Positions 14,886 to 19,559 of a DNA stretch of 33,773 nt are shown piece after piece. How positions within the stretch are numbered: the first letter of the stretch is position 1; each line of letters opens with the position of its first letter. Under the pieces are notes generated by a model. The model was given only the letters and a program-made list of their open reading frames with translations. It ran no database searches and was not told the origin of the DNA. Where the stretch lies: NCBI GenBank assembly GCA_947458835.1, contig CANHBC010000016.1, forward strand, positions 1-33,773, read 5' to 3'. The DNA comes from Betaproteobacteria bacterium. GTDB taxonomy: Bacteria; Pseudomonadota; Gammaproteobacteria; Burkholderiales; CAIKXV01. The translations under genes and the position numbers were made by a program.

Positions 14886-16705
<1,820 letters not shown>

Positions 16706-16790
16706 TTCCCGGCCCGGCCCTCGTCCCCGACTTCCCGCATCTGGTTCCTCCACATCTGGATACCCGTTTTTCCACGTGCTGTTTGAGGTC

Positions 16791-16819
16791 AATCTAGACG
16801 CCTCGGAATGAGATGTCAA
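16791..16819 (-). promoter_or_regulatory. Putative sigma70-type promoter of the bchF superoperon
   Basis: On the minus strand a perfect -35 hexamer TTGACA (16819-16814) is followed, after exactly 17 bp, by TAGATT (16796-16791), four of six matches to TATAAT. The transcription start would be near 16784. The -35 hexamer is also the outer arm of the PpsR-like operator next to it, so repressor binding would block polymerase. No transcription data exist here. Confidence 0.6.
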
Positions 16820-16847
16820 CTTTAAGTTACGTCTAAAGTTCTTGACA
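16814..16847. promoter_or_regulatory. Twin PpsR/CrtJ-like operator between bchF and ppaA
   Basis: The 34-bp element reads TGT-N12-ACGT-N12-ACA. Each half is one base off the PpsR/CrtJ consensus TGT-N12-ACA: TGT-N12-ACG at 16814-16831 and CGT-N12-ACA at 16830-16847. The two halves share a central ACGT, and the outer arms TGTCAA and TTGACA are exact inverted repeats. The left half contains the palindrome AACTTTAAGTT, which also occurs upstream of bchG. Known PpsR/CrtJ proteins bind pairs of such sites. The regulator gene itself is adjacent, which supports the call. Confidence 0.6.
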
Positions 16848-16871
16848 AGTGTAAAGCGGGTTTGTTCTCAT
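16842..16871 (+). promoter_or_regulatory. Weak putative promoter toward ppaA
   Basis: TTGACA at 16842-16847 on the plus strand is the mirror image of the bchF -35 box. The best -10 candidate is TCTCAT (16866-16871, 18-bp spacing, four of six matches). Transcription would leave a leader of about 230 nt before the ppaA ATG. The weak -10 makes this uncertain. Confidence 0.3.
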
Positions 16872-17109
16872 TTGACCTCTCGCGCCACAGGCGTATCGTG
16901 TGTGTACCCGGACGCCGCTTCAGTCCGGCCCGAACGTCGGAAAATTGCCCGTTCGCTCGACACAACAACCAGCCCGGACAGGTAGCGTCTCGTCAACTGG
17001 ACACTGCCCGGATCGAGGCTGGAAACGTCGGAAGTGGGATTCCCGTGGTGGGTCAATACCGTTGCGCGGCCGTCATCGGTCTGCGCGGGTGCGAGAAGCG
17101 GAGGGGTCG
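16872..17109. other. Non-coding leader region upstream of ppaA
   Basis: Together with the promoter elements to its left this is the only gene-free stretch longer than 300 bp (16706-17109). The part from 16872 on shows no convincing riboswitch, terminator or further PpsR box by eye. It ends with GGAGGGG before the ppaA start. The ppaA frame stays open upstream to a GTG at 16900, so part of it could encode an N-terminal extension, but the residues are Arg/Ser/Pro-rich and look non-coding. Confidence 0.5.
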
Positions 17110-18015
17110 ATGACAGGCGCGGACAGTGACGATAACGATCTGGGCTACGATGGCGAACGGATGCGGGGACAGGCGGGCGACGCATTCGACGTCAACACCC
17201 GGCTCGGCTCTCAGCAGCATGACGACACCGAGCGTCGCATCGCGGGCCTGGTGCGCACGATCGAGGGCGAGATCATTCCCCGCCTGATGCTGGCCCATGC
17301 CGCACGCGGCCGGGAGCTCGTCTCCGCGTCCGGCGCGTCAGGACGCCCGGTCGAGCCGGAACACGTCGACACGCTGATCCGTGCGGTAATGGCCGAGGAC
17401 ACCGCCACGGCGCTCCAGCTGGTGCGCACGCTGGCCGCCTCCGGCATCTCGCTCGAGGCGCTCTACCTCGAACTGCTGAGCCCGGCGGCCCGGCGTGCCG
17501 GTGAGCTCTGGGAAGCGGACCAGTGCTCATTCACCGACGTTACAATCGGGTTGTGGCGATTGCAGGAAGTCATGCATGAACTGGGCATGGCCAATGCGAT
17601 CCCGCCACGGGCGGCGGAACCGCCGCACCGCGTGCTGCTGCGCCAGACCCCCGGTGAGCAGCACAGCTTCGGCCTCAACATGGTGGCCGAATTCTTCCGC
17701 CGTGCCGGCTGGCAGGTCCACGACGAGTCCACCGAAGCAGGCACGGACCCGGTCGCGAACGTCCGCAGCCGCTGGTTCGACGTGGTCGGGCTTTCGCTGT
17801 CGGGAGAGCGGCACCTCGACGTGCTGGCAAGGACCATCCATGCGATCCGCAAGGCATCGCGCAACCGGGGCGTCGGCGTAATGGTCGGCGGCCCACTGTT
17901 CACCGAGCATCCCGACTGGGTCGCACGCGTGGGCGCCGATACCACGGCCGGTGACGGCCGCCAGGCGGTGCTCCAGGCACACACCATGATCGGGTTGCTT
18001 GCCCGCTGCGGCTGA
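17110..18015 (+). CDS. ppaA: Cobalamin-binding antirepressor PpaA/AerR
   Basis: PpaA/AerR proteins bind vitamin B12 and relieve repression by PpsR/CrtJ in response to light. The 301-residue product starts at an ATG with GGAGGGG six bases upstream. A helical region with LWEADQCSFTDVTIGLWRLQ (about 133-152) resembles the SCHIC-type upper part, followed by a B12-binding Rossmann domain: EQHSFG (183-188) is the ExHxxG form of the DxHxxG motif with H185 as the likely cobalt ligand, GLSLSGERHLD (227-237) gives the S-x-L element, and VGGPLF (259-264) the GG element. ppsR follows 37 bp downstream, the standard pair. An in-frame extension to 16900 is open and could give a longer isoform. Confidence 0.92.
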   Translation: MTGADSDDNDLGYDGERMRGQAGDAFDVNTRLGSQQHDDTERRIAGLVRTIEGEIIPRLMLAHAARGRELVSASGASGRPVEPEHVDTLIRAVMAEDTATALQLVRTLAASGISLEALYLELLSPAARRAGELWEADQCSFTDVTIGLWRLQEVMHELGMANAIPPRAAEPPHRVLLRQTPGEQHSFGLNMVAEFFRRAGWQVHDESTEAGTDPVANVRSRWFDVVGLSLSGERHLDVLARTIHAIRKASRNRGVGVMVGGPLFTEHPDWVARVGADTTAGDGRQAVLQAHTMIGLLARCG

Positions 18016-18052
18016 CGCGCGGCAGGTCGGCAGCTCCCACGGAGACTTGAAC

Positions 18053-19480
18053 TTGGTAGTCGAGGCAGCACGGCAGTTCCGGTCCCCCAAGCGTTCCCTT
18101 GGCGAACTCGACGCCGAGGCGACGGCGACCCTTGTCGCGGCCGCCACCGACGTCGCGCTGGTGATCGACGCCGGTGGCGTCATCCGGGACATCGCCGTGG
18201 GCAGCGACGAGCTCGCGCAAGAAGGCTACGACGACTGGATCGGCCGCCATTGGGTCGAGACAGTCACGGTCGAGAGCCGGCGCAAGGTCGAGGAGATGCT
18301 GCGCGACGCGGGCGCCGGCGGGCCGTCGCGCTGGCGGCAGGTGAACCATCCGTCGAGCCGCGGCGACGACATGCCGATGCTCTATTCGACCGTCCCGGTC
18401 GGCAGCAAGGGTCGGGTGGTGGCGATCGGCCGCAACCTGCGCTCGATCGCCACGCTCCAGCAGAAGCTGCTCGACGTGCAGCAGTCGATGGAGCGCGACT
18501 ACCTGCGCCTGCGCCATGCAGAGACGCGCTATCGTCTGCTCTTCCAGATGGCCGCCGAGGCGGTGCTGATCGTCGACGCAGGCACGCAGCGCGTGGTCGA
18601 GGCGAACCCGGCGGCTGCCCAGCTACTCGAGGAGACGGCGCGCCGGCTGGTCGGCCGTCCCTTCCCGGAAGGGTTCGATGCGCCGAGCACACAGGCGCTG
18701 CAGTCGCTGCTCGCGGCGGTCCGCGCCGCAGGCAGCGCGGACGAGGTACGCGTGCGTCTGCTGGAGGGGCGTCGCGAGTTCATGGTCAGCACGTCGATGT
18801 TCCGCCAGGACAACGCTTCGCTGTTCCTGGTCAGGTTGTCCCCCATCAACACTGATTCGGGAGCTGGTCCGATGCCACGTGCACAAACCCGGCTGTCCGA
18901 TATCGTCGAGAGCCTTCCCGACGGATTCGTGGTCACCGACGTCGACGGCCAGATCATCACCGCGAACCGCGCATTCCTCGACGTGGTGCAGCTCGCCACC
19001 GAAGAACAGGCGCGCGGCGAGTCGATCGAGCGATGGCTGGGTCGGCCCGGCGTAGACCTCAACGTGCTGCTTGCAAACCTGAAGCAGCATGGTTCGGTAC
19101 GCATGTTCGCGACCACGCTGCGCGGCGAGTACGGCGCGAACACCGAGATCGAGATCTCGGCCGTATCGGCACCGAACACCGAACCGCCATGCCTGGGCTT
19201 CACGGTGCGCAACATCATGCGTCGTCCAGTGGCCGAGAACCGGAGCAGCCACGCACTGCCGCGTTCGGTCGAACAGCTCACGGAACTGGTTGGCCGCGTA
19301 TCCCTGAAGGAACTGGTGCGCGAGACCACAGACGTGATCGAGCGACTGTGCATCGAAGCTGCGCTCGAGCTCACCGGCGACAACCGTGCCTCGGCTGCCG
19401 AGATGCTCGGCCTGAGCCGACAGAGCCTTTATGTGAAGCTCCGTCGCTACGGAATGGGCGACCTGGCACCGGAAGCCTGA
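18053..19480 (+). CDS. ppsR: Photosynthesis gene repressor PpsR (CrtJ)
   Basis: PpsR represses bch, crt and puc/puf genes under aerobic conditions. The 475-residue product has an N-terminal sensory domain, a coiled linker (about 132-160, LQQKLLDVQQSMERDYLRLRH), PAS-like domains at about 160-265 and 280-390, and a C-terminal Fis-type helix-turn-helix (GDNRASAAEMLGLSRQSLYV, 442-461). The start is a TTG at 18053 with GGAG eight bases upstream; an earlier TTG at 18047 is too close to that site and the open frame from 17999 overlaps ppaA. Only two cysteines occur: C380 and C433. C433 corresponds by position to the redox cysteine of the DNA-binding domain; a cysteine near residue 250 is absent. Confidence 0.95.
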   Translation: MVVEAARQFRSPKRSLGELDAEATATLVAAATDVALVIDAGGVIRDIAVGSDELAQEGYDDWIGRHWVETVTVESRRKVEEMLRDAGAGGPSRWRQVNHPSSRGDDMPMLYSTVPVGSKGRVVAIGRNLRSIATLQQKLLDVQQSMERDYLRLRHAETRYRLLFQMAAEAVLIVDAGTQRVVEANPAAAQLLEETARRLVGRPFPEGFDAPSTQALQSLLAAVRAAGSADEVRVRLLEGRREFMVSTSMFRQDNASLFLVRLSPINTDSGAGPMPRAQTRLSDIVESLPDGFVVTDVDGQIITANRAFLDVVQLATEEQARGESIERWLGRPGVDLNVLLANLKQHGSVRMFATTLRGEYGANTEIEISAVSAPNTEPPCLGFTVRNIMRRPVAENRSSHALPRSVEQLTELVGRVSLKELVRETTDVIERLCIEAALELTGDNRASAAEMLGLSRQSLYVKLRRYGMGDLAPEA

Positions 19481-19517: not shown

Positions 19518-19559
19518 TGTCAGTCAGGTTTACAGTTCTACTGTAACTTTAAGTTGACT
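19518..19559. promoter_or_regulatory. PpsR/CrtJ-like operator pair upstream of bchG
   Basis: Two boxes lie seven bases apart: TGT-N11-ACA at 19518-19534 and TGT-N12-ACT at 19542-19559. The second, read on the minus strand, contains GTCAACTTAAAGTTAC, differing at a single base from GTCAACTTTAAGTTAC in the bchF operator. Between them sits an exact inverted repeat, TTACAG-N5-CTGTAA (19530-19546). Close pairing of boxes is typical for PpsR/CrtJ targets. The one-base deviations lower certainty for each box alone, but the repeated sequence supports them together. Confidence 0.6.

Follow-up and report, generated by a model that had tools for sequence, protein, structure and literature searches.

A compact candidate PpsR/CrtJ operator of two overlapping boxes at the −35 of the bchF promoter

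The gap between the divergent bchF and ppaA-ppsR genes of a betaproteobacterium is likely to carry a compact PpsR/CrtJ operator, in which two 18-bp boxes overlap by 2 bp and are anchored on the −35 of the bchF promoter. Anoxygenic photosynthesis in bacteria has PpsR/CrtJ as its central repressor, and the binding rule for this protein, spaced pairs of TGT-N12-ACA, was derived mostly from Rhodobacter. The reading given here was obtained from sequence comparison.

Results

The window, the whole stretch of 33,773 nucleotides that was analysed, contains a photosynthesis gene cluster. On the minus strand lies bchF (16178..16705; 2-vinyl bacteriochlorophyllide hydratase, TIGR02020, E 1.4e-58), the first gene of bchFNB..., with its ATG near 16705. 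On the plus strand follow a ppaA/aerR-like gene with B12-binding domains (17110..18015; PF02310, PF02607), whose start codon was inferred from where the similarity to relatives begins (tblastn), and ppsR (17999..19480; TIGR02040, E 8.9e-167), whose product presumably binds the operator. To the left the cluster continues with bchN, bchB, bchL and bchM, and to the right with bchG and bchP. A search of the bchF-ppaA gap against Rfam gave no match to an RNA element up to E = 1.

Between bchF and the ppaA/aerR-like gene, positions 16814-16847 read TGTCAACTTTAAGTTACGTCTAAAGTTCTTGACA, a 34-bp element with the layout TGTCAA-N9-ACGT-N9-TTGACA. This direct read agrees with an earlier note on this DNA, which had located a TGT-N12-ACGT-N12-ACA element there and described it as a twin PpsR-like operator. 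Two putative PpsR/CrtJ-type boxes, conserved in relatives and without an assigned strand, make up the element: box 1, TGTCAACTTTAAGTTACG (TGT-N12-ACG, 16814..16831), and box 2, CGTCTAAAGTTCTTGACA (CGT-N12-ACA, 16830..16847). The ACG of box 1 and the CGT of box 2 overlap by 2 bp within the central ACGT and the box centres are 16 bp apart. The boxes had been described as abutting with 0 bp between them; the spacing is in fact minus 2. The missing spacer is indeed unusual; the overlap lies outside the 7-9 bp pairs that have been studied.

Each box matches TGT-N12-ACA at five of six positions, with one mismatch apiece, and the strict consensus is found in neither. Single one-mismatch boxes were near the chance level within the window (87 found versus 70.6 expected), so that the case for the element rests on the 34-bp combination. 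Counted from a predicted bchF start near 16784, the boxes occupy −30 to −47 (box 1) and −46 to −63 (box 2). The canonical paired PpsR operator, with boxes 7-9 bp apart over −35 and −10, was rejected as a description, since here a 2-bp overlap takes the place of the spacer and the pair extends from −30 to −63. We propose that the element would work like a canonical PpsR operator at the −35, though outside that subtype.

The palindromic core AACTTWAAGTT was also considered as a conserved feature and rejected, because the congeners have not retained it. It occurs at just two places in the 3.76-Mb genome, in box 1 of the operator and in a box at 19542-19559 of the window. The latter is a one-mismatch PpsR-type box upstream of bchG, TGTAACTTTAAGTTGACT, which has AACTTTAAGTT in common with box 1.

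The occurrence of the element was analysed in 398 genomes spread over the phylum Pseudomonadota. TGTCAA-N9-ACGT-N9-TTKACA was found in 16 of them, that is in 16 of the 31 bchF-positive genomes and in none of the 367 without bchF. Among 48 bchF-positive Burkholderiales genomes, 28 had TGTMAA-N9-ACGT-N9-TTKACA exactly once and the remaining 20 lacked it, and the reversed control pattern had 0 matches in the same 48. The earlier note had suggested a comparison among relatives with the same gene order, and there both arms and the centre are kept. The strict pattern TGT-N12-ACGT-N12-ACA was present in 24 of 30 Burkholderiales bchF upstream regions, and a divergent ppaA-like gene adjoins bchF in all 24 loci. 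Allowing up to two mismatches of 16, the element was found in 107 of 136 bchF loci, some of them redundant. Since 0 of the 136 reversed controls and 0 of 2720 shuffles matched, the 34-bp combination is not due to chance.

The 80 named loci with the element, mostly with 0-2 mismatches of 16, belong to alpha-, beta- and gammaproteobacteria; the selection by 16 fixed letters makes the conservation at those letters partly circular, which spares the pattern counts in genomes and the unselected columns. The carriers are Roseospira, Rhodopila, Rhodoplanes, Rhizobium, Hyphomicrobium, Sphingomonas, Bradyrhizobium and Rhodopseudomonas among the alphaproteobacteria, Variovorax, Rhodoferax, Rubrivivax and Comamonas among the betaproteobacteria, and the gammaproteobacterium Thiorhodococcus. 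Movement of photosynthesis clusters from one lineage to another is known. Box pairs with a centre distance of 16 bp were present in 26 of 118 non-redundant loci, and the next commonest distance in 3. The position of the element varies among the genomes and its geometry is constant.

The element is almost confined to the bchF/ppaA gap, with one promoter per genome. Away from bchF a single compact element was found, at another photosynthesis promoter (L177:1994-2027, genome G666). It is flanked on one side by a nitrogenase-like gene of the bchN/B/Y type and on the other by an FrhB/FdhB gene, after which comes a Mg-chelatase-like gene. One family of Burkholderiales (L026, L034; genomes G069, G189) lacks the compact element and has two full boxes 180 bp apart. 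In this family the PpsR match is interrupted immediately ahead of the HTH, between the model positions 368 and 377.

To the left, the arm of the operator coincides with a predicted bchF promoter. The promoter scan reported TTGACA-N17-TAGATT on the minus strand from 16819 to 16791 with 10 of 12 matching positions; the −35 TTGACA (16814..16819) is the left arm itself, and the −10 TAGATT (16791..16796) follows after a 17-bp spacer. Across relatives, 89 non-redundant elements were compared, 70 near bchF and 19 far from it; we ourselves chose where to divide near from far, the thresholds for deduplication and TANNNT as the criterion. An outward TANNNT at 17-18 bp from the left arm was present in 79 of the 89 (63/70 near, 16/19 far), and all 10 congeners have it at 17 bp. 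Likewise, the −10 columns −22 to −17 are conserved across the 70 near-bchF elements. The earlier assignment of the left arm as the bchF −35 is thus borne out by the scan and by the congeners.

The binder was addressed with the columns that had not been used for selection. In the 70 non-redundant near-bchF elements, T13 was found in 60, T14 in 49 and G15 in 46 (TTGACG), while A or C occupied position 20 in 63 and A22 was present in 54 (CGTMAA). The TTG at 13-15 and the MAA at 20-22 are the letters of PpsR half-sites. In four loci (L018, L032, L033, L162) the centre is ACAT, which makes box 1 a perfect TGT-N12-ACA with the 34-bp length kept. PpsR scored above the cut-off in every bchF-positive genome tested, with ppsR adjacent or elsewhere in the same genome; for this reason, operator and PpsR cannot be separated by co-loss. 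Degenerate boxes of both kinds are bound in other species: in R. gelatinosus, PpsR gave footprints on promoters that contain TGT-N12-ACG and CGT-N12-ACA boxes (PMC4452267), and in vivo occupancy of a CGT-N12-ACA site is known for the R. sphaeroides protein (PMC4344238). The bchF/ppaA gap of D. shibae is repressed by PpsR via boxes over −35 and −10 (PMC10890935). The genome of the window also has a classical pair at bchC, TGTAAATGACACTTGACA-N8-GGTCAGAGTAATCTGACA, with centres 26 bp apart. Taken together, these comparisons suggest that the element is probably a pair of PpsR boxes.

A second classical pair in the same genome, TGTCACTTGCCAATTACA-N8-TGTAACGTTTGCGTTACA (L176:2761-2804, contig C47), consists of full boxes spaced by 8 bp. 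The open frame downstream of it matches a MnuA-type nuclease only weakly, below the cut-off, and no photosynthesis gene was identified nearby.

On the ppaA side, the promoter scan reported TTGACC-N16-TATCGT on the plus strand (16872..16899), a likely ppaA-ppsR promoter that is separate from the operator. The TATCGT block is kept in 9 of 10 members of the genus and reads TATTGT in the tenth; it is also present in L097 and L150, there with TTGCCA at the same 16-bp spacing. In this genus, TTGACC-N16-TATCGT is the likelier ppaA-ppsR promoter when compared with the right arm. The operator does not cover this promoter but lies upstream of it, so that any effect on ppaA-ppsR would come from an upstream-bound regulator rather than from occlusion of the promoter.

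A TTGNC-type −35, a 16-bp spacer and a GGCGTATCGT-like −10 were seen on the ppaA side of the operator at 16872-16899 of the window and in the congeners L006-L014. The same arrangement was also observed in some alphaproteobacterial loci (L097, L150, L151, L152, L159). With this recurrence in a betaproteobacterial genus and in alphaproteobacteria, it has the look of a ppaA-ppsR promoter of old origin. In the far-group elements (L091, L100, L106, L108, L114, L117, L139, L143), ppaA is close and bchF is 230-300 bp away. Of their two boxes, box 2 (CGTAAA...CTTGAC) is the better conserved, as though the operator had its strong side towards ppaA.

Discussion

The earlier note had read both arms as the −35 hexamers of two divergent promoters, so that one PpsR complex would close bchF and ppaA-ppsR, giving repression plus autoregulation. 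The left half of this reading stood, with the bchF promoter in 10 of 10 congeners. In this genome the right arm is a perfect TTGACA, and some ppaA-close elements, those of the Bradyrhizobium, Rhodopseudomonas and Rhodopila loci, have a weak rightward conservation near 18 bp (A54 and T58, 10/19 each). However, the right arm has no acceptable −10 in the window and the scan reported no promoter there. A TANNNT at 17-18 bp beyond it was found in only 10 of 89 elements (7/70 near, 3/19 far), and none of the 10 congeners has one at 12-25 bp. A back-to-back pair in which each arm has an outward −10 at 16-18 bp was accordingly rejected for the genus (left 10/10, right 0/10). Moreover, the right arm reads TTTACA in 28 of the 70 near elements, and the conserved TTGACC-N16-TATCGT provides a separate promoter. 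We therefore regard a single complex closing two arm-based promoters as unlikely.

Another regulator or a heteromer, for example PpsR with PpaA, might instead target the element through a core TTGACGTMAA, the likeness to PpsR boxes being secondary. The strictly fixed ACGT centre departs from both box consensuses, and the element is found at about one promoter per genome, whereas other PpsR targets have spaced or single boxes. Against this, box-like letters are present at all four half-sites, the ACAT centre variants fit the PpsR consensus, and PpsR control of bchF in Rhodobacteraceae is known from boxes at the same place, which makes such a regulator an improbable answer. It is harder still to believe that the bchF promoter alone is functional and that the rest of the palindrome arose by chance or is left over from the past. 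In favour of this, the left arm is a true −35 and has a conserved −10. Against it, the ACGT centre and the right arm TTKACA are both placed well upstream of the −35; they do not vary across three classes although the intervening letters drift, and the 367 genomes without bchF lack the pattern altogether. We consider this possibility almost negligible.

For the compact PpsR/CrtJ operator that we favour, the deviation of both boxes from the strict consensus and the spacing outside the studied 7-9 bp pairs are points on the other side, and the 2-bp overlap might bar simultaneous binding of two dimers. In the usual pair with an 8-bp spacer the centres are 26 bp apart; the 16 bp seen here are about one helical turn less, so that the relative facing of the dimers would be kept. 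Two PpsR dimers, probably as one tetramer, could thus bind on roughly opposite faces of the helix. The R. gelatinosus PpsR is a tetramer in solution (PMC4452267). Such a tetramer would be clamped on the −35 and the DNA upstream, covering −30 to −63 and leaving the −10 open, and would exclude sigma-70 from the −35 and close the bchF operon. By analogy with R. gelatinosus, where a positive action of upstream-bound PpsR is reported in work cited in PMC4452267, the bound protein could also act positively. The ppaA-ppsR genes would probably be transcribed from the separate promoter, whose −35 starts 25 bp beyond the operator.

More tentatively, the overlapping operator may be the prevalent and probably old bchF switch of phototrophic Proteobacteria, with a distinct pair-of-dimers mode that activates as well as represses. 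If this mode is true, the dimers would sit on opposite faces with the −10 free, and the upstream-bound PpsR or a PpsR-PpaA complex would activate as well. If the form is indeed prevalent, the spaced layout of Rhodobacter would be exceptional, and in many species the site would have escaped consensus scans. Scans for the exact consensus can miss the element because each half has one mismatch. In a survey of Sediminicoccus, bchC and puc were the only places for which sites were reported, although target-like behaviour is seen for ppaA and ppsR as well (PMC10949492). In the open-access literature searched, we found no earlier description of an overlapping PpsR pair.

Among the known systems, the R. 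capsulatus bchC operator has two TGT-N12-ACA boxes at −47/−30 and −21/−4 that are bound by CrtJ (PMC5362033). The paired palindrome at a CrtJ-repressed bch operon is alike, and box 1 has the register of the upper palindrome (−30 to −47) over the −35. There, however, the second box is downstream over the −10 and 8 bp away, whereas here it is upstream and overlaps the first by 2 bp. At pucB and crtI of R. gelatinosus, a betaproteobacterial PpsR likewise binds degenerate TGT-N12-ACG and CGT-N12-ACA boxes, but these are 9 and 8 bp apart and not overlapping (PMC4452267). In that species a spacing change of 1 bp alters the redox control (PMC4452267), and the conserved fused-box operator is therefore a natural experiment in the reading of DNA by PpsR oligomers. 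In D. shibae and R. sphaeroides the same divergent genes bchF and ppaA are under PpsR and a box spans the bchF −35, but each promoter has separate full boxes (PMC10890935, PMC4344238). The compact element is missing from the Rhodobacteraceae-type loci (Rhodovulum, Tateyamaria, Sulfitobacter); in these and similar genomes the two main boxes, both full, are separated by about 120-145 bp, a layout that matches the separate ppaA and bchF sites of R. sphaeroides (PMC4344238).
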